Part shown: positions 8,451 to 56,901 of the stretch, one piece after another
How positions within the stretch are numbered: the stretch's first letter is position 1
Layout of the letters: every line of letters begins with the position of its first letter
Source: Thalassotalea hakodatensis
GTDB lineage: Bacteria > Pseudomonadota > Gammaproteobacteria > Enterobacterales > Alteromonadaceae
Reading direction: 5' to 3'
Length of the DNA stretch: 64,000 nucleotides
NCBI RefSeq assembly: GCF_030295995.1
Contig: NZ_AP027365.1
Span: 1,426,001 to 1,490,000 of the forward strand
Translations under genes and position numbers: made by a program
Notes under the pieces: model-generated
Seen by the model: only the letters and a program-made list of their open reading frames with translations
Databases searched by the model: none
Told to the model about the DNA's origin: nothing

Positions 8451-9620
8451 ATGATGAATTTTCAACGCACAATTTGTTTATTTTTACTTGTGTTTGCTAG
8501 CAACCTTTGGGCAAGCGAGCTTATCGTAGAAAAACAAAAGTTCACCTTAGATAACTTCAAAACCTTTAATGGCAAATTAATCAAGCAAGTGAATGTTGGC
8601 TGGGAAGCTTACGGCACATTGAATGAAGATAAATCGAATGTCATTTTAATCACTCATTACTTCACGGGTAATTCACATGCAGCAGGAAAATACAGTAAGC
8701 AAGATGCAATGCCTGGTTATTGGGATAGCATTATTGGCCCTGGAAAAGCCATTGATACCAATAAATACTATGTGATCAGCTCTGATACGTTAGTTAATGC
8801 TAGTGCCTTTGATAAAAAGGTTATTACAACTGGGCCTGCAAGTATCAACCCTGAAACGGGTAAGCCTTATGGATTAAGCTTCCCAGTAGTAACCATTCGC
8901 GACTTTGTTAATGTACAAAAAGCACTAATAGATAGTTTAGGAATTAACAAATTACATGCTGTGATTGGCGCTTCTATGGGATCAATGCAAGCGTTAGAGT
9001 GGGCTGTCGCTTACCCTGATATGGTTGAACGTATGGTGTCAGTTATTGGTATTGGCCAATCTGATGCGTGGTTAGTCGCAGGATTAGAAAAATGGTCAGC
9101 ACCAATCAAACAAGATCCAAAGTGGAATAACGGTGATTATTATCAAAGTGAAGCTCCTAATACGGGTTTAATGTATTCGCTTGCCACTATTACTCAAGAA
9201 GCAATGCATCCTGCGATTTTTAATGCTTCGAATCCTACCCATAAGAATATAGTAGATGGCGCTTTAAACGATATTAATGCAACGTTTCCTGTGGTTGATT
9301 GGCTATATGGCGCAGCAAAAGCCAGAGTAAATACAATGGACGCTAATCATATTTTGTATCTTGTGCGGGCAAGTCAACTATTTATTGCAGGACATAATAA
9401 TGATTTATCAGCAAGTTTAGCGAAAGTAACCGCGAAGTCACTGTTTTTACCAGCTACTAACGACTTATTGTTGTATCCAGAAATGGCGAAAAAAACCCAT
9501 GAAATGTTAGGGGATAAAAGCCAGTACGAAGAAATTAATGGCATGTGGGGACACTTAGACGGTTTATTCACCATACAACAAAAAGCTAAAACGTTAAGTG
9601 ACTTTTTGGAGCAGGAGTAA
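8451..9620 (+). CDS. Exported E22/MetX-like alpha/beta-hydrolase esterase
   Basis: 389 aa. An N-terminal signal peptide (MMNFQRTICLFLLVFASNLWA) predicts export. The body resembles homoserine O-acetyltransferase-like hydrolases: THYFTGNSHAAG oxyanion region, nucleophile elbow GASMGSMQ (Ser near 176), a candidate acid in PATNDLLLYPE and His in GMWGHLDGL. Export and operon position argue against a biosynthetic MetX role. It sits between the permease (15 nt upstream) and bdhA (stop/start overlap). I infer that it hydrolyses an ester or oligomer of 3-hydroxybutyrate in the periplasm, feeding the permease and dehydrogenase; this is untested. Confidence 0.78.
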   Translation: MMNFQRTICLFLLVFASNLWASELIVEKQKFTLDNFKTFNGKLIKQVNVGWEAYGTLNEDKSNVILITHYFTGNSHAAGKYSKQDAMPGYWDSIIGPGKAIDTNKYYVISSDTLVNASAFDKKVITTGPASINPETGKPYGLSFPVVTIRDFVNVQKALIDSLGINKLHAVIGASMGSMQALEWAVAYPDMVERMVSVIGIGQSDAWLVAGLEKWSAPIKQDPKWNNGDYYQSEAPNTGLMYSLATITQEAMHPAIFNASNPTHKNIVDGALNDINATFPVVDWLYGAAKARVNTMDANHILYLVRASQLFIAGHNNDLSASLAKVTAKSLFLPATNDLLLYPEMAKKTHEMLGDKSQYEEINGMWGHLDGLFTIQQKAKTLSDFLEQE

Positions 9621-10387
9621 TGAAAAATAAAACGGTCCTTATTACCGGAGCTGCAAGCGGTATTGGCTTTAGCATTGCTCAATTACTGGCAAAGCAACAG
9701 GCGTCGGTGATTATCACCGATGTCAGCGAAGAAGCGGCGCAACAAGCAAAACAAACATTAATAGCAGAAGGTTTTTCTGTTGATGCATATAAACTTGATG
9801 TAACCAATGAAAATGATATTGCTCACTTAGTGGAAACACTCGGCAATACACCAATTGATATTTTAATTAATAATGCAGGCATACAACACGTTTCACGGTT
9901 AGAGGAGTTCCCGATGGGGGCTTGGCAAAAAATCGTTGATATATTGTTAACGGGGCCGGCAAGAACCTGTAAAGCAATATTACCTAAAATGCGTGAACAT
10001 GGTTTTGGACGCATTATTAATATTGGTTCGATTCACGGTTTAGTTGCCTCACCTTATAAATCGGCCTATGTGGCAGCTAAGCACGGATTAATCGGTTTTT
10101 CTAAGGTTATCGCGCTAGAAACTGCTGATTGCGATATCACGATAAATACCATTTGTCCTGCGTATGTCAAAACCCCTCTAGTGGAAAAACAAATTGCAGA
10201 TCAAGCAAAAGAACATGGCATTAGCGAGGATGAGGTGATTGAAAAAATAATGTTGGCACCAATGCCGAAAAAAGCCTTTATCGATATGGAAGAAATAGCC
10301 GCAACCGTGCAATTTCTTGCGAGTGAAAATGCCAGAAATATGACCGGTCAAGCCCTAGTGCTGGATGGCGGTTGGACAGTTAAATAG
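9620..10387 (+). CDS. bdhA: 3-hydroxybutyrate dehydrogenase
   Basis: 255 aa short-chain dehydrogenase. It has the NAD-binding TGAASGIG motif at the N terminus, NNAG, catalytic Ser in NIGSIHG, and Tyr-Lys in SAYVAAKHG; the [17 protein letters not shown] segment is characteristic of D-3-hydroxybutyrate dehydrogenases. It oxidises 3-hydroxybutyrate to acetoacetate with NAD+. Its ATG overlaps the esterase stop (TAATG) with AGGAG just upstream, so it is translationally coupled. The next two genes encode the CoA-transferase that consumes its product, which makes the assignment firm. Confidence 0.93.
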
Positions 10388-44111: not shown

Positions 44112-44303
44112 TGTATTTATGAGAAAATACCATTTTTATTCATAGTAAGACGCACGTATAAATCACATATGAGCTTAGCGCTACCAACATTGACAGGGTT
44201 ACCTAAGTAATGATGGATATTCCACGATGCAGACAACTTCGGGAAGCGTAACAAGCAAGCAGTTTGTTTTGGTTTATTACAGGAAATGGGTTATCAAATC
44301 ACC

Positions 44304-45281
44304 ATGAGTAAAGATTTTACATTTAACATAAAGAATATTTGTCTTGATGAAAATTATCATCCTTCAGACAATACACGTATTACAACCAACTTTGCTAATC
44401 TGGCAAGAGGTGAAAGCCGCCAGCAAAATTTACGTAACGCGTTGAAGATGATCAATAATAGCTTTAATGCGTTGGCATTTTGGGATAATCCAAAAGCAGA
44501 TCGTTACTCGGTCGAGCTTGACATTATTTCAATCGATATGGATATCAACGGTGATGGCGACGCATTTCCATCCATTGAAATTCTGAAAACTAATATCGTT
44601 GATCATAAAACGGATGAACGTATTGAAGGAATCGTAGGTAATAACTTTTCTTCTTATGTGCGCGATTATGATTTTAGTGTATTGCTTGGTGAGCATAATA
44701 AAGGACAATCACAATTTAGTGTTCCTGAAAATTTTGGTGAATTACACGGCAAACTTTTTCAATATTTTGTTCATTCAAATGCTTATAAGCAGCACTTTAA
44801 AAAGTTGCCTGTTATTTGTTTAAGTGTATCTGATAATAAAACCTACTACCGTACAGACAATCAACATCCGGTTTTGGGTGTTGAATATCAGCCAAACGAG
44901 TCCTCATTAACTGAGCAATACTTCAAAAAGATGGGCTTGCAGGTTCGATATTTTATGCCACCTAATAGTGTCGCACCGTTAGCGTTTTATTTTTTTGGTG
45001 ACTTGCTTAACGACTACAGCAACCTTGAACTAATAAGCACTATTAGCACAATGGAAACGTTTCAAAAGATTTATCGACCTGAAATTTATAATGCCAATGC
45101 CGTTGCGGGAAATTGCTATCAACCAAACTTAAATAACGTAGATCATTCACTTACCCAAATAGTGTATGACCGAGAAGAACGCAGTGAATTAGCAATAAAG
45201 CAAGGTAAGTTTGCTGAAGAGAATTTTATTAAGCCTTATCAAACCGTACTTGAGCAGTGGTCTGCTAAATACGCACTTTAA
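44304..45281 (+). CDS. mesX: MesX (DUF1852), partner of methionine synthase MesD
   Basis: 325 aa from ATG 44304, the usual family start (MSKDFTFNIKNICLDENYHPSDNTR). An in-frame ATG at 44286 has AGGA only 1 nt away, which is too close to serve; neither site has an ideal ribosome-binding site. The sequence is the DUF1852 family (TTNFANLARGESRQQNLRNAL; NFSSYVRDYDFS). Published work shows MesX is needed for MesD, the oxygen-dependent, folate-independent methionine synthase. mesD follows by 37 nt. Confidence 0.88.
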   Translation: MSKDFTFNIKNICLDENYHPSDNTRITTNFANLARGESRQQNLRNALKMINNSFNALAFWDNPKADRYSVELDIISIDMDINGDGDAFPSIEILKTNIVDHKTDERIEGIVGNNFSSYVRDYDFSVLLGEHNKGQSQFSVPENFGELHGKLFQYFVHSNAYKQHFKKLPVICLSVSDNKTYYRTDNQHPVLGVEYQPNESSLTEQYFKKMGLQVRYFMPPNSVAPLAFYFFGDLLNDYSNLELISTISTMETFQKIYRPEIYNANAVAGNCYQPNLNNVDHSLTQIVYDREERSELAIKQGKFAEENFIKPYQTVLEQWSAKYAL

Positions 45282-45318
45282 TTGATTTTAGCGACACAAA
45301 AGGTAAAGCAGTACTATT

Positions 45319-46365
45319 ATGAACAATACTAACGTTAACACATTATTACCCACGTCTACGGCTGGCAGTTTACCTAAACCGTCATGGCTTGCAGAACCTG
45401 AGGCGCTTTGGTCTCCTTGGAAGCTACAAGGTAAAGCTTTAATTGACGGTAAATGTGATGCACTACGAGTGTCATTGCATGAGCAGCAACAGGCGGGAAT
45501 TGACATTGTTAGTGATGGCGAACAAACGCGTCAACATTTTGTGACTACCTTTATTGAACATCTTAATGGCGTAGATTTTGAAAACCGTAAAACGGTTAAG
45601 ATACGTGATCGTTATAATGCGAGCGTACCTACGGTTATTGGTCCAGTTTCACGTACTAAATCAGTTTTTGTGGAGGATGCAAAGACACTACGAACACAAA
45701 CTAATCAACCGATAAAGTGGGCGCTACCAGGCCCTATGACAATGATCGACACCTTGTTTGATGACCACTACAAAAGCCGTGAAAAGCTGGCATGGGAATT
45801 TGCTAAAATTCTTAATGAAGAAGCCAGAGAGTTAGAGGCTGCTGGGGTTGATATTATTCAATTTGATGAACCTGCGTTTAATGTGTTTTTTGATGAAGTG
45901 AACAAATGGGGAATTGCGTGTTTAGAAAGAGCAGTTCAAGGTTTAAAATGTGAAACAGCAGTTCATATTTGTTATGGCTACGGTATTAAGGCCAACACCG
46001 ATTGGAAGAAAACATTGGGCTCGGAATGGCGACAATACGAAGCGATATTTCCACGATTGCAAGAATCGAAAATCGATATTATTTCGTTAGAATGCCATAA
46101 CTCTCATGTGCCAATTGAGCTGCTTGAATTGATCCGCGGTAAAAAAGTTATGGTAGGGGCAATTGATGTCGCCACGAATACCATTGAAACACCGGAACAA
46201 GTCGCTGATACGTTAAGAAAGGCATTACAATATGTTGATGCAGACAAGCTTTACCCATGCACAAACTGTGGTATGGCACCTTTATCACGAGAAATTGCAC
46301 GCGGTAAATTGAATGCGTTAAGTGCAGGAGCAGCGATAGTTCGTCAAGAAATCGTTAACCTATAA
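45319..46365 (+). CDS. mesD: MesD core methionine synthase
   Basis: 348 aa, corresponding to the C-terminal catalytic half of MetE without the folate-binding half. It has STAGSLPKPSWL at the start, DIVSDGEQTRQHF, WALPGPMTMIDTLFD, DIIQFDEPAFN, HICYG and a C-terminal PCTNCGMAPL zinc ligand motif. Pairing with DUF1852 identifies the MesD type rather than MesA-C. It would methylate homocysteine using a non-folate methyl donor that is not yet clear. Confidence 0.9.
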   Translation: MNNTNVNTLLPTSTAGSLPKPSWLAEPEALWSPWKLQGKALIDGKCDALRVSLHEQQQAGIDIVSDGEQTRQHFVTTFIEHLNGVDFENRKTVKIRDRYNASVPTVIGPVSRTKSVFVEDAKTLRTQTNQPIKWALPGPMTMIDTLFDDHYKSREKLAWEFAKILNEEARELEAAGVDIIQFDEPAFNVFFDEVNKWGIACLERAVQGLKCETAVHICYGYGIKANTDWKKTLGSEWRQYEAIFPRLQESKIDIISLECHNSHVPIELLELIRGKKVMVGAIDVATNTIETPEQVADTLRKALQYVDADKLYPCTNCGMAPLSREIARGKLNALSAGAAIVRQEIVNL

Positions 46366-46421
46366 AATTAACATAGTTGTATTTTAATACCTTCAGTAAA
46401 TTGGCGAGTATTGAATAGGTT

Positions 46422-46453
46422 TATTGGTTTGATGCGTATGTATCAAACCAATA
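46422..46453. terminator. Hairpin between convergent mesD and TSUP genes
   Basis: TATTGGTTTGAT and ATCAAACCAATA form a perfect 12-bp stem with an 8-nt loop in AT-rich DNA, 19 nt before the TSUP stop. Confidence 0.65.
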
Positions 46454-46472
46454 TTAAAAAATAAAAGTGCCT

Positions 46473-47303
46473 TTATAAAAAAAGCTGCGCTAGCATTCTT
46501 AAACCCGTTATGAGTAATACAATGGCAAAGACCTTTTTTAGTTTTACTGCATCTAATTTTGCTGCAAAAGCTGCTCCAATAGGGGCAAACAAGACCGTTA
46601 ATGGCACAATAAAAATAAACCCAATTAGGTTAACTAAACCATAAGTACCAACAGGTGCGTCAGTTGGTGTGCTACCTAGAGTAAGCATGGTTATCGCGCC
46701 AGGTAGCGAAATGATTAACCCAATTGCTGCTGCAGTGCCAACAGCTTTGTGAGCGGGATAGTTAAAAAGGGTAAGCAATGGTACTGAAATCGTGCCGCCG
46801 CCAATGCCCACCATTGCACTGAAAAAGCCGATAGATGTGCCCATGACGGTTTGTCCTACGATATTAGGTAATGCTTTATATATCGTTGATTTACCTGTTC
46901 TAAACAACATATTAAGTGCTGACATTGTTGCTATCAAGCCAAATAATAAGGTTAATATGGTGCCATCTACGCGAGTGACTAGCCAACTGCCCACTAACAC
47001 ACCTACAAGAATACAAACTGACCAGCGTTTTAATAGCACCACATCAACGTTACCTTGTCGATGATGAGAACGAATTGAGCTAATTGAAGTGGGCACGATG
47101 GTAGCTAAAGATGTTGCGGTAGCAACGAGCATTGCAGATTCAGCAGAAACACCAAGGCTTTGAAATAAAAAATAAAGTACTGGCACAATCACTATGCCGC
47201 CACCTACACCTAACAAACCTGCTAACATTCCAGCGAATATGCCGGTGGCAACCAATGCTGAAAATGTAGGGATATTATTCAATATAAACTCAATGTAATT
47301 CAT
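46473..47303 (-). CDS. TSUP (TauE/SafE) family transporter
   Basis: 276 aa with about eight hydrophobic helices and the duplicated glycine-rich motif of the family: GMLAGLLGVGGGIVIVPVL and FSAMVGIGGGTISVPLL. TSUP members move sulfite, sulfonates or other organic anions. Its place between mesXD and metR suggests a sulfur-related substrate, but this is inference. Confidence 0.85.
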   Translation of the reverse strand: MNYIEFILNNIPTFSALVATGIFAGMLAGLLGVGGGIVIVPVLYFLFQSLGVSAESAMLVATATSLATIVPTSISSIRSHHRQGNVDVVLLKRWSVCILVGVLVGSWLVTRVDGTILTLLFGLIATMSALNMLFRTGKSTIYKALPNIVGQTVMGTSIGFFSAMVGIGGGTISVPLLTLFNYPAHKAVGTAAAIGLIISLPGAITMLTLGSTPTDAPVGTYGLVNLIGFIFIVPLTVLFAPIGAAFAAKLDAVKLKKVFAIVLLITGLRMLAQLFL

Positions 47304-47340
47304 TAGTAACTGCTCTAATGTATAAGTGAAGGGGGATTAA

Positions 47341-47603
47341 AGCGTGTTGATCTTTCATGTTTACTTTTGCCGCAATTTGTTTGGTATTTATACAAGGCAA
47401 CACTTGCGCTGTGTAGTTATTCTACTCCAGTCAAGCGTTAACACAGTAGAAATGCCAAACAGATACAGCCCGAAGAGTTCAACTAAACGCCTCCTGCTCT
47501 TTGTTACTTGAATTAACCATTGAATGACTATGCAATAATCCAAGTGCCGCGATCAGAAGGCGTGTAATTTGAACAAAACTTAAACAGCAAAGATCAACAC
47601 GCT
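47341..47603. mobile_element. MITE-like element with perfect 15-bp terminal inverted repeats
   Basis: AGCGTGTTGATCTTT at 47341-47355 and AAAGATCAACACGCT at 47589-47603 are exact inverse complements bounding 263 nt in the TSUP-metR gap. No gene lies inside. The size and termini fit a miniature inverted-repeat element. A degenerate match to the right end may exist near 25240-25280. No clear target duplication was found. Confidence 0.55.
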
Positions 47604-47683
47604 CTAGTGGCTAATTCGTTTTATTCGAGGTATTGTATCGAACCTTATTTGATGAGTATAAATGATATAATTTCATGAATTAA

Positions 47684-47696
47684 TGAATTCCACTCA
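47684..47696. promoter_or_regulatory. Possible MetR autoregulatory box
   Basis: TGAATTCCACTCA differs from TGAA-N5-TTCA at one position and lies 25 nt before the metR start, where autoregulation is known in this family. Confidence 0.35.
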
Positions 47697-47721
47697 TGAT
47701 AAAGTGAACAGGACCAATAAC

Positions 47722-48606
47722 ATGTTAGAAAGGATCCATTTAGAAATACTTACCGCCATAAAAACACATGGTACGCTAACTAAGGCGGCTAGTTCATTAC
47801 ATTTAACGCAGTCTGCATTGAGCCATAGTATTAAAAAATTAGAAGGACAAATTGGTACATCTATCTGGCAGAAAGATGGGCGGAGTTTACGGCTTACAGC
47901 AGCAGGTGAGCATATTCAAATTCTTGCTAATAGAATGCTGCCTCAGTTTTCCCATACGGAATTATTACTCAAGCAAATTGCAAAAGGTGAAATGGGTTCG
48001 TTACGCATTGGAATGGAGTGTCACCCTTGTTATCAATGGTTACTCAGGGTTATTCAACCTTATTTAGAACACTGGCCAGACATTGATATGGACGTCAGGC
48101 AAGAATTTCAATTTGGTGCATTGGGCGCATTACTTAGTTATGAAATTGATGTATTAATAACGCCAGATCCATTATATAAACCAAAAATAGACTATATTCC
48201 CGTGTTTAATTATGAGCATAGGTTGGTTGTTTCTGAATCTCATGATCTGGCGAATCAAGCATATGTACTACCTGAACAACTAACTAAAGAAGTTCTCTTT
48301 AGTTATCCTGTTGAACCAATGAGACTTGATATTTTTAGTCAATTTCTTAATCCAGCTAAGTGTTCAGTAAAAAAACACAAAACGATTGAAACCACTGAGA
48401 TTATGTTACAGATGGTCGCTGCTGGTCGTGGAATTTGCGCCTTACCTGGTTGGCTGGTTGATGAGTACTCAAATGCAATGCCGATCAAAAGTCTTCGCTT
48501 TGGTCAGCAGGGTATCAATAAACAGATCTTTGTTGGTATTCGTAATGATGAACAACATATTGATTACTTGAGCGATTTTATTACTCATGCGAAAAATACA
48601 GCATGA
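47722..48606 (+). CDS. metR: LysR-family regulator MetR
   Basis: 294 aa from ATG 47722 (MLERIHLEIL), the standard MetR N terminus with AGGA 9 nt upstream; the longer frame to 47683 adds 13 polar residues. The LysR helix-turn-helix is GTLTKAASSLHLTQSALSHSIKKLE. The effector domain contains the MetR-typical GMECHPCYQWLLRVI and AAGRGICALPGWL. MetR responds to homocysteine and activates methionine synthesis genes; a perfect box lies before mesX. Confidence 0.88.
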   Translation: MLERIHLEILTAIKTHGTLTKAASSLHLTQSALSHSIKKLEGQIGTSIWQKDGRSLRLTAAGEHIQILANRMLPQFSHTELLLKQIAKGEMGSLRIGMECHPCYQWLLRVIQPYLEHWPDIDMDVRQEFQFGALGALLSYEIDVLITPDPLYKPKIDYIPVFNYEHRLVVSESHDLANQAYVLPEQLTKEVLFSYPVEPMRLDIFSQFLNPAKCSVKKHKTIETTEIMLQMVAAGRGICALPGWLVDEYSNAMPIKSLRFGQQGINKQIFVGIRNDEQHIDYLSDFITHAKNTA

Positions 48607-48712: not shown

Positions 48713-49234
48713 TTAATTAGCGTCTATCAGGTCTTGATAATCGCTTTGGTTCGCCACATCTTGGATAAACTCTCTGCCATTAACCGACAGTGGAATATCT
48801 GTTGAAGCCTGATTAAAGGCGTCGCGGCTGAATTGGCTAAACGAAACTTGTAAGGCTTCGATTGTGATATTGATAGTTCCACTGACCGGGCTTGCAATAC
48901 CATCACTCACCGTGTAACTAAAACTGTCAGAGCCTGTTTGCTCGGCAAATGGGATGTAAGTAAAGGTCCCATCTGAGGTCACACCAACGGTACCAAGCAT
49001 TGGATCGCTGCTGATCTCATAGGTCAGTGGGTCACCATTAGCATCGCTAGCAGGCAAATTATCAACAATGTTTGTTTCAGTTTGTGTCGCTAAATTAGCG
49101 TCATTTGCAACTGGTGGTACGTTTGGCTCAATAACAACCTTACCGTCATTGTCGCTATCCAAACAAGCGCTCAAACTTATCACCACCGACGATAAAGCAA
49201 ACAGTTTTAGACGATATACATTTATTTTATTCAT
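48713..49234 (-). CDS. Lipoprotein with Ig-like (cadherin/VCBS-type) domain
   Basis: 173 aa from ATG 49234, with AAGGAA 7 nt upstream. The lipobox SLSAC anchors it. An Asp-rich linker (LDSDNDGKV) precedes one Ig-like repeat (PPVANDANLAT ... DANGDPLTYEISSDPMLGTVGV ... YTVSDG) as found in surface proteins. It follows the DUF4331 gene by 26 nt and is probably its operon partner under the ECF-type promoter. The ligand is unknown. Confidence 0.78.
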   Translation of the reverse strand: MNKINVYRLKLFALSSVVISLSACLDSDNDGKVVIEPNVPPVANDANLATQTETNIVDNLPASDANGDPLTYEISSDPMLGTVGVTSDGTFTYIPFAEQTGSDSFSYTVSDGIASPVSGTINITIEALQVSFSQFSRDAFNQASTDIPLSVNGREFIQDVANQSDYQDLIDAN

Positions 49235-49260
49235 GTTTGATTCCTTCATTAATTGTATGC

Positions 49261-50853
49261 TTATTCAGAGCCCGCTTTAGGCGTTGCTAAGTATGGGAAT
49301 GTTGCATCCATCATGTTGGCATTTAAGGGGGCACCATCGGTAAAAGGCACGTTACCTACAACAGCATCTTCTGGGGCACATAAGCCAAGATTTGTTGATT
49401 CTCCGTTTACTGGAATAGGGTGACATAAAGCCCCCATAGCTACGCGAAGGGCAATATCTACTACATCATCACCAGGGCGACGACCGTTCGGAAACCCAGC
49501 TAAGTCATTACCAGCAACACCAAAGGCAGATTGCTCTGATTGCGGTGTGGCAGGAATACCAGTGTTTAGTCTTAACATTTCAGATGGAGTTACCGTAGAA
49601 AGCTGGTTTACACCTTCAACACCCGTTAGAAAGGCAGTGACTAAATCTGTTCTTGGGAAGTTAGTTGGCGCAAGCGTTGCAAAGTCTGTTCCTAACGTCG
49701 CATTTACGGGGTCTTTAAACAAAATGTTCAGCAACTCAGGCAATGCGGGGTGCGTGACATAATCCGCAAACTGCCCATCATTCATCGGATGTGCGCTTGA
49801 GAACTTATCTTTATCTTCAATACCAATAACTAATTCGTTGACCAGAGGTGAGCCTAAACGCGAAACCTGTGTCATGGCACCGCCAGTAACTTCTGGTTTA
49901 TCAAATGTCGCATTCGGATTTAGCACGCGCGCTTGCGGAAGGCTTGCGGTGGTCCAGCTTCCAATAGTGCCGTTGCCGTCACCTGTTATGCATGCCTTAG
50001 GTACTTCAATAGCAATGCTCGTTACGTTTTTATTGGCCAAATCATCATTACCTGCATCTTGTGTAATGCCGCCGGGAAAACCGCCGTTATCATTAGCACC
50101 TGGTGCGCTATCACCTTCTACTGGTACATAGTTCACTAGATCGAAAGTTTCGCCTAGGTTGACCACAAATGGGTCTTTACGCTGACCTACAAACACACGG
50201 CCCATGGTGCTACAGCCAGGTATGGAAATGTCATACACGAAGCTATTGGCGTAGTCCTGATATCCTGCCATATTAGAAAATGTTTTATTACCAATGTAAT
50301 CCAGAGGCTTACTAAAACTTTCACCGCCGCTAGTTGCATTGCTGATGGGTGTGTGTGTACCGCTGCGAGTATCGCCTTCAATCATTGTTAATGTGTATGA
50401 TTCAGCAAAATTTGCGCTGTTTTGATCTGTGGCCGACACAGGGCCAATATTAACGAGTGGCACGCCCACTGAACGCTGATTTCCTTCCGGACCAACAGTT
50501 AACTTCACTCCTTGATTATTGTTTGCGAGGCTGCGTTCAAAGTCAAAGGCAAAGGTAATATCTTCAACGGCATCGCCGTCAGTATCTATATGAATGCTAT
50601 AGATAGCTTCTGGATCCATGGGGAAATAATTTGGACCGCCGTAAGCATCTTGCAAAGGAATATAGTTTGCAATCATAGTCACGTAGTCTCCACGGCCTTC
50701 TTCATAGCTATTAAAAGCGTAAAAGTCGGTAGAGTCGACGGTAGGGAAGCGAGTAATATTTGGTGCTTCACGGTGGCTAGATGCTTGTATGGTACTACTA
50801 ATGGCTACACAGCATAAGGCTGGTATTATTAGTGATAGATGTGCTTTTTTCAT
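49261..50853 (-). CDS. DUF4331-family exported protein
   Basis: 530 aa. A signal peptide (IPALCCVAISSTIQA) is followed by the diagnostic SSHREAPNITRFPTVDSTDFYAF segment of DUF4331 and a large beta-rich Asp/Gly/Asn-containing body. The family is common in bacteria and often lies beside ECF sigma factors, but its function is not known. Here it is divergent from an ECF sigma/anti-sigma pair and shares a promoter motif with it. A lipoprotein gene follows. Confidence 0.85.
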   Translation of the reverse strand: MKKAHLSLIIPALCCVAISSTIQASSHREAPNITRFPTVDSTDFYAFNSYEEGRGDYVTMIANYIPLQDAYGGPNYFPMDPEAIYSIHIDTDGDAVEDITFAFDFERSLANNNQGVKLTVGPEGNQRSVGVPLVNIGPVSATDQNSANFAESYTLTMIEGDTRSGTHTPISNATSGGESFSKPLDYIGNKTFSNMAGYQDYANSFVYDISIPGCSTMGRVFVGQRKDPFVVNLGETFDLVNYVPVEGDSAPGANDNGGFPGGITQDAGNDDLANKNVTSIAIEVPKACITGDGNGTIGSWTTASLPQARVLNPNATFDKPEVTGGAMTQVSRLGSPLVNELVIGIEDKDKFSSAHPMNDGQFADYVTHPALPELLNILFKDPVNATLGTDFATLAPTNFPRTDLVTAFLTGVEGVNQLSTVTPSEMLRLNTGIPATPQSEQSAFGVAGNDLAGFPNGRRPGDDVVDIALRVAMGALCHPIPVNGESTNLGLCAPEDAVVGNVPFTDGAPLNANMMDATFPYLATPKAGSE

Positions 50854-50887: not shown

Positions 50888-50917
50888 CCAAACGAGCGAG
50901 GAAAGCAACTGGATGCA
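50888..50917 (-). promoter_or_regulatory. ECF-type promoter of DUF4331 operon
   Basis: On the minus strand TGCATCCA, 15 nt, then CGTTTGG, with the second half 34 nt from the start codon. The spacing and sequence are identical to the sigma-factor promoter at 51149-51178. Confidence 0.72.
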
Positions 50918-51148
50918 TAAAAATTAAAATTTTTTTAAGACTTGTTTACCTTAGAAAATTACTCGACTACCTGAGGTGACAACAATTGATCTTATTTTAA
51001 TTGTGAACACTTGAATAGTTACTATTGTTGGCCTTTAGTTTTAGTTGTTGATCGGAACAAGACAAATCAAAAAAAGTCCCTATACTAAAGTCTAAAATAA
51101 TTAAAATGAATTTCAAAAGTTTTGCACTTCTTACCCTTTACTTTTGAT

Positions 51149-51178
51149 TGCATCCAATTTCAAGGCTGAGCCGTTTGG
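51149..51178 (+). promoter_or_regulatory. ECF-type autoregulatory promoter of sigma/anti-sigma operon
   Basis: TGCATCCA, 15 nt, CGTTTGG. The second half ends 27 nt before the sigma-factor start codon. It is one of four sites with the same layout in this region, which supports self-activation. Confidence 0.75.
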
Positions 51179-51205
51179 ATAGTTGAATATTGAAATAAGT
51201 AAACA

Positions 51206-51757
51206 ATGGGAAAAAAAATGGAACATGAAGAGTTATTGCCACTTTTGCTTAAAGTTGCTCGCAACGACCGTTCGGCGTTTGAAGCGATTTATAACAAAAC
51301 CAGTGGGCAGATGTATGCGGTTGCATTAAAAATGCTAGCAAAGCCTGAATTGGCAGAGGAAGCTACGCAAGAAGCGTTTGTAAGAATTTGGTACAACGCA
51401 AGCCAATATACGGAAGGTAAAGGAACAGTACTTACTTGGATAATCAGTATCGTACGCTATCGTGCTCTGGATATTTTACGGTATCGCAAAGTACGAAAGG
51501 AAGAAGGTGTTGATGATTTAGAAGGCATGGCTTCATATCATTCTGATGAAGCAGAACCTGAAACTGACATTGAGTCAGGTAAGCTCAACCGTTGTATGGG
51601 TGAATTAGATAGTTTGCAGCGCCAAGCGATTCATTTGGCTTATTTTAATGGTTGCTCTCATGGCGAAGTGGTGACACACATGGAGAAGCCACTAGGTACG
51701 ATTAAAAGCTGGATCAGACGAGGCCTTCAGGCCTTAGAGAGGTGTTTAAGCTTATGA
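51206..51757 (+). CDS. ECF sigma factor (SigK-like)
   Basis: 183 aa. Region 2 is visible (SAFEAIYNKTSGQMYAVAL, EEATQEAFVRIWYNAS, ILDILRYRK-like DNA-melting helix), as is region 4 (LDSLQRQAIHLAYFNGCSHGEVV, PLGTIKSWIRRGLQAL). It lacks regions 1 and 3, as ECF factors do. Its stop overlaps the anti-sigma start (ATGA). The promoter motif before it also occurs at three other units nearby, so these are its probable targets. Confidence 0.9.
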   Translation: MGKKMEHEELLPLLLKVARNDRSAFEAIYNKTSGQMYAVALKMLAKPELAEEATQEAFVRIWYNASQYTEGKGTVLTWIISIVRYRALDILRYRKVRKEEGVDDLEGMASYHSDEAEPETDIESGKLNRCMGELDSLQRQAIHLAYFNGCSHGEVVTHMEKPLGTIKSWIRRGLQALERCLSL

Positions 51758-52467
51758 ATTATACTCAATCAGAATTACTCTCTTCGCTCGCATCTGAATA
51801 TGTGTTAGGCACCTTGCGGGGCCCTGCTCGTCATCGCTTTGAATCGTTGAAGGTGAAGGATGCCAAGGTACAAGACGCTGTGCAATATTGGGAGTCACAA
51901 TTAAATGTGATGGCGACTTCGATTAAGCCCATTGAACCCCCCGCGAGAGTGTGGAAGAAAATTGAGCTTAGTTTGGGTTTTGTATCCAACAGCGATGATC
52001 TAACTAATCCACGAGTATCAAATGAGATAAGAGAACAACCTAGCGCTAATAAGAGCTGGAAAGTGATAAGCGGGCTTGCCGTCGCAGCAAGTTTTATCTT
52101 GTCGGTTATGTTTTATCAGTTTTCTACCGATTTTAAATCGCCGAACTCAGTTGCTGTGTTTGCTAATGCTGAGCAACAAACGTTGTGGTCAGTAGATGTA
52201 CGTAAAGATAACTTGTTCATCCGTAGTACGCAAAATTTGGCAAAACGTCCAGCAAATGATTATGAACTATGGATTGTTCCTGCATCAGGAGGTGCGCCTA
52301 TATCACTCGGCTTATTGCAACAGGAAGGCACATTTACTTTACCTAAACCGAGGGTATTTGACGAGGTTGAAATTGCAGCGTTGGCGGTAAGTATCGAACC
52401 GAAAGGGGGCAGTCCTACAGGAGCACCTACAGAAGTGTTGTTTACTACCCAGTTGGCCTTATTATAG
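51754..52467 (+). CDS. RskA-type anti-sigma factor
   Basis: 237 aa from ATG 51754, chosen for the ATGA overlap with the sigma stop; the in-frame GTG at 51742 is possible. A cytoplasmic N-terminal sigma-binding part (ELLSSLASEYVLGTLRGPARHRFE) leads to a single membrane helix (VISGLAVAASFILSVMFYQF, near 108-127) and a periplasmic RskA C-terminal domain (NDYELWIVPASGGAPISLGLL). It should hold the sigma factor at the membrane until a periplasmic signal arrives. Confidence 0.88.
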   Translation: MNYTQSELLSSLASEYVLGTLRGPARHRFESLKVKDAKVQDAVQYWESQLNVMATSIKPIEPPARVWKKIELSLGFVSNSDDLTNPRVSNEIREQPSANKSWKVISGLAVAASFILSVMFYQFSTDFKSPNSVAVFANAEQQTLWSVDVRKDNLFIRSTQNLAKRPANDYELWIVPASGGAPISLGLLQQEGTFTLPKPRVFDEVEIAALAVSIEPKGGSPTGAPTEVLFTTQLALL

Positions 52468-52488
52468 GGGGTAGGAAAGCGCTTAGTT

Positions 52489-52553
52489 GATGTGAACACA
52501 TGACAAATGTGTTCACATCAAAAAAAGCGAGCCTTGTAAAGGCTCGCTTTTTT
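52489..52553. terminator. Two stacked hairpins between anti-sigma and DUF4198 genes
   Basis: GATGTGAACACA (52489) pairs perfectly with TGTGTTCACATC (52508-52519). A second stem GCGAGCC/GGCTCGC (52527-52547) is flanked by an A run and a T run, so it can end transcription from both converging genes. Confidence 0.85.
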
Positions 52554-52573
52554 ATCAAAATAGAAAGATTAAG

Positions 52574-53395
52574 TTATTTCTCATAGCCAAAGGTTAAGCT
52601 AGAAAAATATGTTTCATATTCAGCTGTGCTGCGGTATGTGTTAGGTACACTCCAAATAACATTAACTATCCAGCTACCTTGCGTTTCAATTTTAAAACTC
52701 GCTTCCCCTTTAGCGTTGGTGCGCATGGTTTGCTTTTCCATATTACTTCCAGCAAGTGGCGCAATATCAACAAGGGCATTTTCAAGTGGCTTCCCCCTAA
52801 ACATAACGTTTACCGGTAATATTTTATCATCTCCTAATTGATAGGGGTTGCGTAGCGGCACAATTTCAAGCATGTGACCAATAGCGACAGTAGCATTGTC
52901 GGTGAATTTATTGCCCACCTGTAATAAGGCTTTAGCTTTTCGCGAATAAATCTCGCGACCGCTAGTTTGTGTCTGATTCAAGCGTTTACGATCTTCTAGT
53001 ATGAGCGCTAAACCTTCATTTTTTGCGTAGTCATTAAACTTATCGGCCTTTAAACTACTAAAGCTATGATAACTTTCAAAACCTAAAACATGCGTACCTT
53101 CCTCTGCCAGTGCTACATTAGCTAAGCCTTTAACTATGCCGTTGTTCACGATTATATTTTCTAGCTGGTCTTGATAGGCGCCATCGCTATAAGTTCTGAG
53201 CGCGACGATTTTATTCCAACTTAAAGCCCAAGCGCCAACATCGTTAGCATGACCGACTAAAAATTTTACAGGGATCTTAACGGGGGCTTTGTCCGCTTGA
53301 AAAGAGTTTGGACTTAACCAAAAATCGTGGGCATAACTGAATGTAACGTTGATGCACAGCAGACCAATTAGGGTAAATTTAGTGATAAATCGCAT
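52574..53395 (-). CDS. DUF4198-family periplasmic protein (first copy)
   Basis: 273 aa. A signal peptide (FTLIGLLCINVTFSYAHDFWLSP) ends in the AHDFWL segment typical of DUF4198. The C-terminal half is an Ig-like domain (LPVNVMFRGKPLENALVDIAP ... TNAKGEASFKIETQGSWIV). DUF4198 proteins are often associated with nickel/cobalt uptake systems. It faces away from the second DUF4198 gene and lacks the clear ECF motif seen for its neighbours; a partial -35-like CGCATCCA lies at 53475-53482 (minus). Confidence 0.8.
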   Translation of the reverse strand: MRFITKFTLIGLLCINVTFSYAHDFWLSPNSFQADKAPVKIPVKFLVGHANDVGAWALSWNKIVALRTYSDGAYQDQLENIIVNNGIVKGLANVALAEEGTHVLGFESYHSFSSLKADKFNDYAKNEGLALILEDRKRLNQTQTSGREIYSRKAKALLQVGNKFTDNATVAIGHMLEIVPLRNPYQLGDDKILPVNVMFRGKPLENALVDIAPLAGSNMEKQTMRTNAKGEASFKIETQGSWIVNVIWSVPNTYRSTAEYETYFSSLTFGYEK

Positions 53396-53573
53396 AGGCT
53401 CTCCTTAGAACTCTATTTTTTGTAATGTGTGAATTTAACGCACCGTTACATTTTAGGGTGATTAACATCTTGATGGATGCGTAAGTTTTGTATCAGAGAA
53501 CCATACTCCTCACCCCGTATATTGGATGCCAGATTTATGAATAAACAAGAAAATAAATTTAAGCATACCTCTT

Positions 53574-53603
53574 TGCATCTATTTAGCTTAGTTGCACGTT
53601 TAG
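53574..53603 (+). promoter_or_regulatory. ECF-type promoter of second DUF4198 operon
   Basis: TGCATCTA, 15 nt, CGTTTAG. It lies 83 nt upstream of the DUF4198 start and matches the layout of the sigma-factor promoter. Confidence 0.65.
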
Positions 53604-53686
53604 TTTAATTCAGTGAGGAAGAAGTACTAAAAATAGGTTACTGAGTACTAACAATTACGTCATGAAAACTTATAAATGGAGCAATT

Positions 53687-54409
53687 ATGTTTGAATGGAA
53701 AATAAATCGAATAAAAAGTATGTTGATCTTACTACTGGCTATAAATAGTTCTTTAACTATGGCACATACAGTATGGCTTGAACCCGCGAAAGAGAAGAAC
53801 ACTTATAATATATCGTTCGGAGGACATGGTGGAAAACAGGTTGCCTATGAACCGGAAAAGTTAAAACGAATAGCAGCGTTTGATGCTAAAGGGAAGCCGT
53901 TGAACGTAACACGCTCAGATAAAAGTGAAGCTAGCCAATTGCAAATCCAGCCAAATACCGCGCTAGTCGCTATCTACTTTGATAATGGAATATGGAGTAA
54001 AGATAAAATGGGTAAAAGTGTTAACAAACCCATGAACCAAGTACCACATGCAACTCAAGCGACTAAAGCCGTAAAATACCATAAAACCGTTCTTGAGTGG
54101 TCACCAGTTGTACTTAAATCACTTGACCAAGAATTTGAGGTGATTCCTTTAGAAGACAGTCAACCAGAAGCTGGAAAAGTCATGCGTGTAAAGGTTTTGT
54201 TAAAAGGAAGACCCTTAGCAGGGGTTAAGCTTGGTCAGGGGGAAATTGGTGACAACATAGAAACCAACGCTGAGGGCATTGCTGAATTTGTACCTAAATC
54301 AGGTTTCAATAAATTGTGGGCAGGTAAACGATTCCAAGTTCAACAAGAACAATACACTGAATTAAGTTATGAATACTTGTTTGGGTTTTACACAGGAGAT
54401 AAGAAATGA
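53687..54409 (+). CDS. DUF4198-family periplasmic protein (second copy)
   Basis: 240 aa with GGAG 6 nt before the ATG. A signal peptide (MLILLLAINSSLTMAHTVWLEP) leads to a DUF4198 body including ISFGGHGGKQVAYEP and a C-terminal Ig-like LLKGRPLAGVKLGQGEI ... TNAEGIAEFVP. The stop overlaps the next start by 4 nt. It lies between ECF-type promoters and upstream of the TonB-dependent receptor, suggesting a periplasmic or surface partner of that receptor. Confidence 0.8.
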   Translation: MFEWKINRIKSMLILLLAINSSLTMAHTVWLEPAKEKNTYNISFGGHGGKQVAYEPEKLKRIAAFDAKGKPLNVTRSDKSEASQLQIQPNTALVAIYFDNGIWSKDKMGKSVNKPMNQVPHATQATKAVKYHKTVLEWSPVVLKSLDQEFEVIPLEDSQPEAGKVMRVKVLLKGRPLAGVKLGQGEIGDNIETNAEGIAEFVPKSGFNKLWAGKRFQVQQEQYTELSYEYLFGFYTGDKK

Positions 54410-54759
54410 AAATCAATGTCGGTAATTTGATCACGTTAATAGTACTTCTGTTTTCTTACAGTACGCACCTATATGCCCATGAATTGGATTTAGAAGTAAG
54501 AGTGCTTAGCTCTTCAGTGATAGAAGGGCAGATCAGTACTTCTCATGATGACGGTTCATTTAGGCAATATATCAGCATAGAGAATCTAACGGATACCAGT
54601 TTTAACAAGATTACGTTGCAAAGTAATCATTATGGTCAATTTAAGCTTGTTGGCGTTCCTGGTCATCGATATCGCATCATGCTTGAAGGGGAAGAGGACC
54701 ATTTAGTGTCTGAAGAAGTAGTACTGCCAACGTTGTCTCGATCAAACGTTAGTGAATAA
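54406..54759 (+). CDS. Small exported protein with carboxypeptidase-regulatory-like fold
   Basis: 117 aa. A signal peptide (LITLIVLLFSYSTHLYAHELD) precedes a beta-sandwich-like sequence (LEVRVLSSSVIEGQISTS ... NHYGQFKLVGVPGHRYRIMLEG) resembling carboxypeptidase-regulatory or transthyretin-like domains, often seen next to receptors. Its ATG overlaps the DUF4198 stop, so both are co-translated. Function unknown. Confidence 0.7.
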   Translation: MKINVGNLITLIVLLFSYSTHLYAHELDLEVRVLSSSVIEGQISTSHDDGSFRQYISIENLTDTSFNKITLQSNHYGQFKLVGVPGHRYRIMLEGEEDHLVSEEVVLPTLSRSNVSE

Positions 54760-54767
54760 TATTTAGT

Positions 54768-54797
54768 TGCATCTAATTCATTTAGTTAGGCGTTTTG
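54768..54797 (+). promoter_or_regulatory. ECF-type promoter of TonB-dependent receptor
   Basis: TGCATCTA, 15 nt, CGTTTTG. It begins 9 nt past the preceding stop and ends 70 nt before the receptor start. It is the fourth site with exactly 15 nt between halves. Confidence 0.62.
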
Positions 54798-54867
54798 TTT
54801 TTTTTACGTTGAAAGAGAGCCAGCTAAAAAATAGCTGGCGTTAAGCGATTATGACAATGGAGCAGTT

Positions 54868-56901
54868 ATGAATAAAAACAAAATGACGTTAGCGATGGTA
54901 TCAATATCGGCAGGCATGAGCACGATGGTATTGGCAAACGTCGAGAACGAGTTAAGTAATAAAGAGTCGCGAAAAACAATTGAAGTGATCACGGTCAAAG
55001 GACAAGCGTTAAATAGACTTAACTTTTCCAATTCAGCAACTCAGATATCAACAGAAGATATTCGTTCAAAACAGGTGAAGGACATTAATGAACTGTTAGA
55101 GGATGTACCAGGTGTCAGCATAAGGGATTATGGTCTTGGCGGAGTAGCAAGCTCAACGATTATAAGGGGCTTTGGCGACGGTGCTCATGGCGGGGATTTA
55201 GGCGTCGTTATTGACGGGCTCCCTCTTAATGAAGCCAACTCTCATGCAGATGGATATGCAGATTTAAATGTTGTTGTGCCGCTTGAGATTGAGCAAGTGA
55301 CCGTTTACAAGGGGCCGATTTCAGCACTTTATGGCAACTTTAATCGGGGTGGGTTATTAGCACTTGAAACGCGAAGCTCTGGTAACTATACCGACATTGA
55401 TATAAGTGGGGGAGCATTTGATACTTTCGATGCTCAGGTGGCTGTCGGCAATGAGCTGAACGAAAAACATAATGTTAATTTTGCAGCTCAGCACTTCACT
55501 ACCGATGGGTTTCGCCCGCAGTCAGATGCACGAAGAAGCACTGTATCGGGGCAAACTCGCTACAGGATAACTGAGCAACTTGAATTTGGTTTGTCTGGCC
55601 GTTATCACGATGCAAAGGCAAGTTCTGCAGGCTATACAACGCTAGCGCAGTTTGACGTAGACCCCTACGGCATTGACCCCAGAGTAAAAAATGACGGCAC
55701 TGAAAAAGAATTTGGCACGGCGAGAGCAGATGTTGGTTATGTGATTAACCAAGACACCAAACTTTTGACCTATGCCTACACTACTCAACAAACGTTTACC
55801 CGATGGTTTAGCCGTGGCGGCGCGCAGGCTGAAAATTGGCGACAACGAGAAGAAACTTACGACAGAGATGTATATGGTGTAGGTACAAGTCTAAATGGTG
55901 TTGTTCGTTTAGGCACATTCGAGTTCTCTTATGTCGCAGGGTTAGAGCACTTTAATGAGGAAACAGATTTTCAGTTTTATGAAGATTTAGACAATCGCAA
56001 AAGAGTGTCTTTAGCCGATTTCAATCGCAGATCTACCCTTACCAGTAACGCGGTGTTTGCAGAAGCAGATTTGAATGTTACCGAAAGTATTAACGTCTCA
56101 CTGGGATTACGAGCTGATCAGTTTGATGGCGATTGCCAGCGCTTGGGAGCTGAAACTGCAGTCGCTCCATGCGAGGAGTTAGAAAGTGTCAGTAATGTCA
56201 GTCCTAAAGCAAGTATTCATTATAATATTATTGATAGTCTTCAGCTGAGAGCAAGTTACTCAGAAGGGTTTGCTTTAGCTAGCGGCTTTGCCAAGTTTGC
56301 CTCTGGTGCACAGGATCTTGAAGTCAACGAAATCAAGCAGTATGAAGCGGGTTTATTCTTTCTCCCTTCAGCAAACCTTGAATTTGATGTGTCGCTTTAT
56401 GATATTCAGTCTTCTAATGAAATTAATGAAGTTGCACAAGGAGAATTTATCAACTTTGGGCAAACAACCCGCAAAGGCTTAGAGGCCAGTGTAAGGTGGA
56501 AAATATCCGAACAATTCGAAGTAAAGGGTGTTTTTGGGCAAAGTGACTCAGAGGTTGATAGCAACCTCAACCGAGGTTTACTGGGTAAAGCCGTCAATGG
56601 AGTGCCAGAACAAACTGCAACGCTGATGCTTGATTGGTTTCCAAGCGATAGGCTTAGATTTAATACAACGCTCAGGTATATGGGCGAATACTTTATCAAT
56701 ACGGAAAATAGCAGCTCGGCAGACGATTATACCGTATTAGACCTTCTGTTAACCTATAACCTTAATGTAGGAGAATCTAGTAAAGTGTTTGTTAGGGTTG
56801 ATAACGTGACTGACGAAGTATATGCCTCTACGGTCAACGGCTTAGGAGCATCTCCAGGTGCACCTCGCGCGTTATACGCAGGGGTTCAATTAAGCTTTTA
56901 A
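54868..56901 (+). CDS. TonB-dependent receptor of the ECF/DUF4198 cluster
   Basis: 677 aa. It has a signal peptide (MTLAMVSISAGMSTMVLA), a TonB-box-like IEVITVKGQ, a plug with INELLEDVPGVSIRDYG, IIRGFGDG, LGVVIDGLPLNEANSH, VTVYKGPISALYGNFNRGG, and a beta barrel ending in aromatic VQLSF. The plug is compact and closest in style to metal or small-ligand receptors. The adjacent DUF4198 proteins and the ECF promoter suggest regulated uptake of a scarce ligand, perhaps a metal chelate; the ligand is not readable from sequence. Confidence 0.9.
   Translation: MNKNKMTLAMVSISAGMSTMVLANVENELSNKESRKTIEVITVKGQALNRLNFSNSATQISTEDIRSKQVKDINELLEDVPGVSIRDYGLGGVASSTIIRGFGDGAHGGDLGVVIDGLPLNEANSHADGYADLNVVVPLEIEQVTVYKGPISALYGNFNRGGLLALETRSSGNYTDIDISGGAFDTFDAQVAVGNELNEKHNVNFAAQHFTTDGFRPQSDARRSTVSGQTRYRITEQLEFGLSGRYHDAKASSAGYTTLAQFDVDPYGIDPRVKNDGTEKEFGTARADVGYVINQDTKLLTYAYTTQQTFTRWFSRGGAQAENWRQREETYDRDVYGVGTSLNGVVRLGTFEFSYVAGLEHFNEETDFQFYEDLDNRKRVSLADFNRRSTLTSNAVFAEADLNVTESINVSLGLRADQFDGDCQRLGAETAVAPCEELESVSNVSPKASIHYNIIDSLQLRASYSEGFALASGFAKFASGAQDLEVNEIKQYEAGLFFLPSANLEFDVSLYDIQSSNEINEVAQGEFINFGQTTRKGLEASVRWKISEQFEVKGVFGQSDSEVDSNLNRGLLGKAVNGVPEQTATLMLDWFPSDRLRFNTTLRYMGEYFINTENSSSADDYTVLDLLLTYNLNVGESSKVFVRVDNVTDEVYASTVNGLGASPGAPRALYAGVQLSF

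Follow-up and report, generated by a model that had tools for sequence, protein, structure and literature searches.

We analyzed a stretch of 64,000 nucleotides from the Thalassotalea hakodatensis genome, referred to here as the window (C1:1426001-1490000 of a genome that consists of one contig of 4,275,310 bases). It contains a gene for a SigK-like extracytoplasmic function (ECF) sigma factor that overlaps the gene of an RskA-type anti-sigma factor. Genes for two secreted proteins, a DUF4331 protein and a Big_9 (immunoglobulin-like) protein, run in the opposite direction on one side of this pair, and on the other side are two DUF4198 genes, a gene for a secreted protein of 117 amino acids (p117) and the gene of a TonB-dependent receptor (Table 1). 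A first-pass annotation had proposed that four promoters at this locus share one bipartite motif and that the sigma factor acts on all four, its own included. Here we ask how far the data support such a regulon.

Table 1. Genes, promoter-type sites and hairpin around the sigma factor gene (positions in the window; matrix scores and sibling species are described in the text)
Feature	Position	Strand	Support
Secreted Big_9 (Ig-like) protein, downstream of DUF4331	48713..49249	-	Pfam PF17963; present in 51/80 related loci
Secreted DUF4331 protein, core target (predicted)	49261..50853	-	Pfam PF14224, E 2e-151
Promoter site (-35/-10-like) of the DUF4331 gene	50888..50917	-	exact motif; matrix 21.5; sibling-species identity 15/15
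Promoter site of the sigma-anti-sigma operon (autoregulation)	51149..51178	+	exact motif; matrix 22.0; sibling-species identity 15/15
SigK-like ECF sigma factor	51206..51757 (start possibly 51218)	+	Pfam Sigma70_r2, r4_2
RskA-type anti-sigma factor	51754..52467	+	Pfam RskA_C (PF10099), E 1.5e-20; 4-base overlap with sigma gene
Strong hairpin with runs of A and T on its flanks; lies between the anti-sigma and DUF4198 genes, which converge	52521..52553		fold -21.5 kcal/mol, z -5.8
DUF4198 protein, gene of the probable fifth site	52574..53395	-	Pfam PF10670, E 2.3e-28
Probable fifth site, weaker, of the other DUF4198 gene	53501..53530	-	GGCATCCA-N15-AGTATGG; 3 mismatches; score 8.3
Promoter site of the DUF4198 / 117-aa gene pair	53574..53603	+	exact motif; matrix 18.7; sibling-species identity 15/15
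DUF4198 protein	53687..54409	+	Pfam PF10670, E 7.6e-15
117-aa secreted protein (p117), weakly NikL-like, overlaps DUF4198	54406..54759	+	NCBIfam NF058648 NikL, E 0.004
Promoter site of the TonB-dependent receptor gene	54768..54797	+	exact motif; matrix 22.5; sibling-species identity 14/15
TonB-dependent receptor	54868..56901	+	Pfam Plug, TonB_dep_Rec_b-barrel

We found that the motif read by the first-pass annotation, TGCATCYA-N15-CGTTTDG, is matched exactly at all four places, with 15 nt between the halves each time. The second half ends 34 nt (DUF4331), 27 nt (sigma), 83 nt (DUF4198) and 70 nt (receptor) from the listed start codon, in agreement with the 27-83 nt originally given. The sigma factor may start at 51218 rather than 51206, since a Met at that place opens the match in 4 of 7 aligned relatives (this evidence comes from match boundaries, not annotated starts), and the distance would then be 39 nt. 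For this sigma alignment, 8 of nine sequences (the strong relatives and the window) were used; L060, with a stop codon in the match, was omitted. A scan of both strands of the whole genome (4.28 Mb), which had been suggested as a check, returned these four as the only sites with 0 mismatches and 1 extra site at one mismatch. At up to two mismatches the genome held 45 sites versus 52 for a reversed-pattern control, and at 3 mismatches the window held 12 sites versus a chance mean of 9.2. The signal is carried by near-exact sites only. The lack of any excess over the control at up to two mismatches gives no hint of a regulon that spans the genome; the regulon, if real, is local. A relaxed pattern with gaps of 14-16 gave 12 sites across the genome versus 4 in its control. 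Four of the 12 are the sites in the window, seven lie inside open reading frames (ORFs) of at least 80 amino acids and one lies outside (C1:3900505, gap 14), with a small ORF approximately 200 nt downstream; no clear distant target was seen in the genome. Scans for sigma-70 promoters and terminators stayed at chance level, and a repeat search of three promoter regions found none.

Since the original consensus had been fitted to its own four sites, an independent matrix test was needed. We collected 80 related sigma loci, each with flanks of up to 10 kb (the best 80 of 575, hence the closest relatives and not a random sample) from Alteromonas, Paraglaciecola, Colwellia, Shewanella, Pseudoalteromonas, Photobacterium, Rheinheimera, Marinobacter, Pseudomonas and other genera, and built a scoring matrix from 52 orthologous sigma promoters, none of them from the window. 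The four sites rank first to fourth in the window with scores of 22.5, 22.0, 21.5 and 18.7, while the next-best sites score 13.7 and 9.4 and the maximum in the reversed window is 9.5. Among the related loci, [TC]GCATC-N17-CGT occurs within 250 nt before the sigma match in 52/80. Only the gap of 17 is enriched there; for the other gaps between 11 and 23 the count is 0 or 1, and for the reversed control at gap 17 it is 2; over both the sigma and DUF4331 gene sets other gaps and the reversed control each give 0-2. An unbiased count of gapped words (5-mer and 3-mer) likewise returned GCATC-N17-CGT as the commonest word before sigma (52/80) and before DUF4331 (50/58). Sites scoring at least 15 number 124 in the 80 loci versus 3 in the reversed control. 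Of the 124, sigma is preceded by 53, DUF4331 by 52, a TonB receptor by 4 and some other ORF by 11; the remaining 4 precede no ORF. Drawn from the relatives, the consensus is less strict than the four sites had suggested and reads TGCATCC(A/G)-N15-CGT(T/A), with a tail that varies.

Of the predicted targets, DUF4331 is the most constant: 52 of the 59 loci with this gene have a site before it. Autoregulation, which had been put forward as a property of the factor, is frequent among relatives and not universal: a site precedes sigma in 40/59 loci with DUF4331 and in 13 of the 21 whose stretch shows none. Sigma lies downstream of a receptor gene that bears the site in four Alteromonas loci. Two observations in this set of loci stand apart. 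Genes for NHL-repeat proteins carry the same promoter in L087 (11389-13545, score 21.5) and L105 (3952-5364, score 16.2) and may be a lineage-specific target, and L213 (G012:C11:36000-54000) holds a second, diverged DUF4331 and sigma with sites of their own (24.5 and 20.8), possibly a paralogous copy of the switch.

We next compared the window with a sibling species (G001). All four sites are kept there, with 59/60 motif positions identical versus 510/661 other intergenic positions (Fisher p = 9e-6). The second of these counts takes in a neighbouring motif that falls within one spacer, so the contrast is if anything understated. This comparison also bears on a site that the first-pass annotation missed. 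Its score in the window is by itself within the control range; the copy in the sibling species, TGCATCCA-N15-AGTATGG, scores 15.7 and shares 14/15 positions with the window. The site at 53501-53530 is thus probably a fifth, weaker promoter, back to back with that of the DUF4198-p117 pair and serving the other DUF4198 gene. The earlier definition of the regulon and its consensus appears too short by this promoter and too narrow for the relatives. A further candidate at 54742-54771 (minus strand, score 13.7), which overlaps the receptor promoter, was rejected as nothing scores 12 or more there in the sibling species; a genome of the same species as the window (G084) retains it, as expected of near-identical DNA.

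We then asked whether the site follows the presence of the sigma factor. In a related genus (g27), both fetched loci with sigma and RskA (2/2; G318 and G366) have sites before sigma and DUF4331 that score 19.8-25.1 (24.1 and 25.1 in L232, 24.1 and 19.8 in L233). Six of six fetched loci of this genus have DUF4331, Big_9, the TPR-like protein and the HupE_UreJ_2 protein with no sigma or RskA match nearby, and these have no site scoring 11 or more; ahead of DUF4331, no word scores above 0.1. A search for sigma at 1e-28 in the complete genomes that hold these loci returned no match. Sigma and sites are both present in L235, from another genus of the same family as g27. In a family sample of 147 genomes, the 37 with DUF4331 are the same 37 with a sigma match below approximately 1e-43, a threshold set at a gap seen afterwards (at 1e-28, 47 genomes match).

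The sigma factor was previously called SigK-like. Its closest sequence match of solved structure in PDB is SigK (4nqw, E 2.9e-25), followed by RpoE (5.6e-17), and C130 and C180 align with SigK cysteines 133 and 183, a pair present in 80/80 orthologues. It does not reach the cut-off of the NCBIfam SigK model (PRK09646; 142.4 versus 226 bits), so it is SigK-like and not SigK itself. The partner gene agrees with this assignment: an anti-sigma homologue is found in 80/80 loci, RskA_C is the sole Pfam family detected in the protein of the window, and this protein, which was aligned with 14 relatives (15 sequences), has a single hydrophobic stretch near residues 105-125, as judged by eye only. The hairpin downstream of the anti-sigma gene is a probable two-way terminator from its fold and flanking runs; the terminator scan did not list it.

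DUF4331 is 50-80% identical across 35 aligned sequences. Just past the likely signal peptide, the SHREAP stretch (residues 24-31) is invariant in 35/35 and could be a ligand or metal site. No PDB sequence matched up to E 1, and the AlphaFold model, made from the alignment of 35, is too weak to draw on (mean predicted local distance difference test score, pLDDT, 57.5) and gave no structure match at E 0.001 or better. In relatives DUF4331-Big_9 is followed by a TPR-like cluster in 53 loci, a label taken from sub-cut-off Pfam matches in one protein, and by a cluster typified by HupE_UreJ_2 in 43, a label taken from one cluster protein, with another member (L140, 170 aa) giving no match. A single distant HupE match, at 35% across the permease portion, is found in the genome of the window. 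TonB receptors occur in 17/80 loci and stand directly beside the module in 16 of the 17, as the next gene after it in 12 and just before sigma with a site of their own in 4. The receptors of two relatives are distant from that of the window (22% overall; 35% over 127 residues), which suggests that the module gained receptors on several occasions.

The DUF4198 and receptor units of the window have a narrower range. DUF4198 (53687..54409) was matched in 3/147 family genomes and the receptor in at least 4/147 (8 candidates scored per genome); in one of the 4 the match is at 36% and has no site. The layout DUF4198-p117-receptor was found in three genomes of one genus only. The NikL match of p117 scores 17.1 bits versus a cut-off of 100, and the protein has no Pfam match. 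In the receptor leader, between promoter and start codon, we observed a hairpin at 54819-54839 (plus strand; 8-bp stem, 5-nt loop; leader z -3.2). The region at 44286-48606, beside these genes, encodes a methionine-synthase core protein (PRK09121), a TauE permease and a MetR-like regulator; it resembles a methionine or sulfur cluster and has no strong site. One ORF in it is presumably of the DUF1852 type.

Our data indicate that the locus is very probably a compact, autoregulated ECF sigma regulon of the SigK/RskA type, in which sigma-RskA and DUF4331-Big_9 would be the core targets and DUF4198, the small secreted protein and the TonB receptor additions in close kin only. Several observations weigh against this interpretation. 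The sigma-promoter matches (52 of 53 at most) are essentially the training set of the matrix and so not independent, which leaves DUF4331, the receptors and the sites of the window as the independent tests. Seven of the 59 DUF4331 loci have no site before DUF4331, and one of them (L137) has none before sigma either. The six loci without sigma all belong to one genus and may represent one event. In G183 (L228) there is no site before DUF4331 (best 0.3) despite an adjoining RskA-like gene, which itself has a site of 12.6 before it; a site of 26.3 lies by a sigma-like gene approximately 5 kb off. Across the order the pairing is looser, with DUF4331 in 20, sigma (1e-28) in 26 and both in 13 of 247 genomes. 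Beyond the matrix, the DUF4198 and TonB sites are supported by near relatives only, and the receptor of G051, 36% identical, has no site scoring 12 or more.

Other explanations account for less of these data. There is next to no chance that the motif is a fortuitous resemblance picked by eye: its consensus was indeed fitted after the fact and its pattern is no commoner than the control at up to two or three mismatches, but a matrix to which the four sites did not contribute still ranks them highest in the window, and the unbiased word count, which recovers the motif in other genomes, has already refuted chance for sigma and DUF4331. We also regard it as highly improbable that the sites are bound by an activator or repressor encoded elsewhere, with the sigma gene merely one of its targets. 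Another factor could read a similar site, and the genome has at least 9 ECF-like genes at E 0.001; yet the matches after the sigma factor itself are far weaker (the next at E 5e-18, approximately 30% identity), the element is asymmetric and promoter-like, its gap and its orientation relative to the gene being constant, and in a related genus loci without sigma and RskA do not have it. A narrower regulon, in which sigma controls itself and DUF4331-Big_9 only while the DUF4198 and receptor sites arose by chance or are read otherwise, is unlikely. The restriction of the DUF4198-receptor layout to one genus fits it, as does the abundance of TonB receptors elsewhere, with 14-55 candidates per genome listed at first look. 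Against this, the two sites far exceed the control maximum, 29/30 of their motif positions are kept in the sibling species, and receptors join the module elsewhere as well. Taken together, the proposed self-activation and control of DUF4331 are supported across genera, by a site at a fixed gap in independent loci that is missing with sigma in a related genus. Control of all four units, as first proposed, is backed for sigma and DUF4331; for the DUF4198 and receptor units, the matrix and one sibling species point the same way, and the support is narrower because these genes are found only in close kin.

ECF regulons that are local and autoregulated are textbook knowledge, and the switch described here belongs to a familiar type. 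Its novelty lies in the connection with DUF4331 and, for this lineage, with DUF4198 and a TonB receptor. In systems of the FecI/FecR type, an ECF sigma factor is combined with a FecR anti-sigma factor and a TonB receptor. The sigma factor of the window similarly adjoins a TonB-dependent receptor; its anti-sigma factor, however, belongs to RskA_C and not FecR, the receptor has a sigma-type promoter of its own, and most relatives do without a receptor. NikK/NikL and HupE/UreJ are parts of nickel-cobalt uptake systems, and we take DUF4198 to be NikK-like. The weak NikL likeness of p117 and the HupE_UreJ_2 proteins of relatives recall these systems, while no genes for ATP-binding cassette (ABC) or energy-coupling factor transporters were seen among the proteins scanned.

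MPT83 is presumably a fasciclin protein. The mpt83-sigK-rskA cassette of Mycobacterium tuberculosis is described in the accessible part of PMC7509140, which also reports redox gating through the SigK cysteine pair. The group label of M. tuberculosis SigK differs between the portions available of two papers, ECF18 in PMC7509140 and AS19-1 in PMC7406223. As in the SigK-RskA systems of M. tuberculosis and Yersinia, as far as that text describes them (PMC7509140), the window has a SigK-like sigma, an adjoining RskA_C anti-sigma, the SigK cysteines and a linked gene for a secreted protein. Unlike in those systems, the linked target is DUF4331-Big_9 rather than fasciclin, and the DUF4198 and TonB-receptor units are added; no fasciclin was found among the 10 window proteins scanned with Pfam. 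Three Pseudomonas loci (L151, L163 and L164; approximately 9150-9860) have a fasciclin-like gene with a site just before sigma-RskA (by Pfam in L163 and by homology in the others), the same layout as the mycobacterial cassette in the part of PMC7509140 available. The accessible text of PMC3597554 describes RpoT (ECF18) of Pseudomonas, likewise a Gram-negative ECF sigma that shares an operon with an anti-sigma, and reports that it controls the TtgGHI efflux pump; no efflux pump was seen among the window proteins scanned. The Pseudomonas homologues that we fetched are 40-44% identical to the sigma of the window, and many have TGCATCC-N16-CGTATATC before sigma or the preceding gene. We could not tie these loci to the published ecf18 locus, with no nhaA or cysE among five neighbours scanned in L149.

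We hypothesize the following mechanism. Judging from its family, the anti-sigma factor would sit in the inner membrane and keep sigma inactive until it is freed by a signal in the envelope that, in view of the cysteine pair, may be linked to redox. Freed sigma would then direct RNA polymerase to TGCATCYA as the -35 and CGTTTDG as the -10 element, amplifying itself and its inhibitor and raising secreted, periplasmic and outer-membrane proteins. The module might handle or take up a small ligand, a guess that comes from its make-up in relatives (DUF4331, Big_9, a TPR-like protein, a HupE/UreJ_2 permease and sometimes a TonB receptor); that the ligand might contain a metal is a guess from HupE_UreJ_2, the NikL-like protein and the receptor.

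These data provide a first regulatory context for DUF4331, a family of unknown function, and tie it to a switch of the SigK/RskA type. The literature that we searched holds nothing on DUF4331; the main ECF classification paper lies outside it, so an earlier mention of the motif or context is possible. In the portions of the literature available to us, the natural signal of SigK/RskA is unsettled. The promoter, with 4 exact sites in 4.28 Mb, is specific enough to predict direct targets, and loci with and without sigma inside one genus form a natural evolutionary control. Tentatively, this switch may govern an undescribed envelope uptake system of marine gammaproteobacteria that imports a ligand, perhaps a metal, through DUF4331, Big_9, the TPR-like protein, HupE/UreJ_2 and often a TonB receptor, and the lineage of the window may have put DUF4198, a NikL-like protein and a new receptor in place of the permease end, under the same promoter. 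If true, one conserved sensor would have come to control different surface proteins in different lineages, fasciclin proteins among them.

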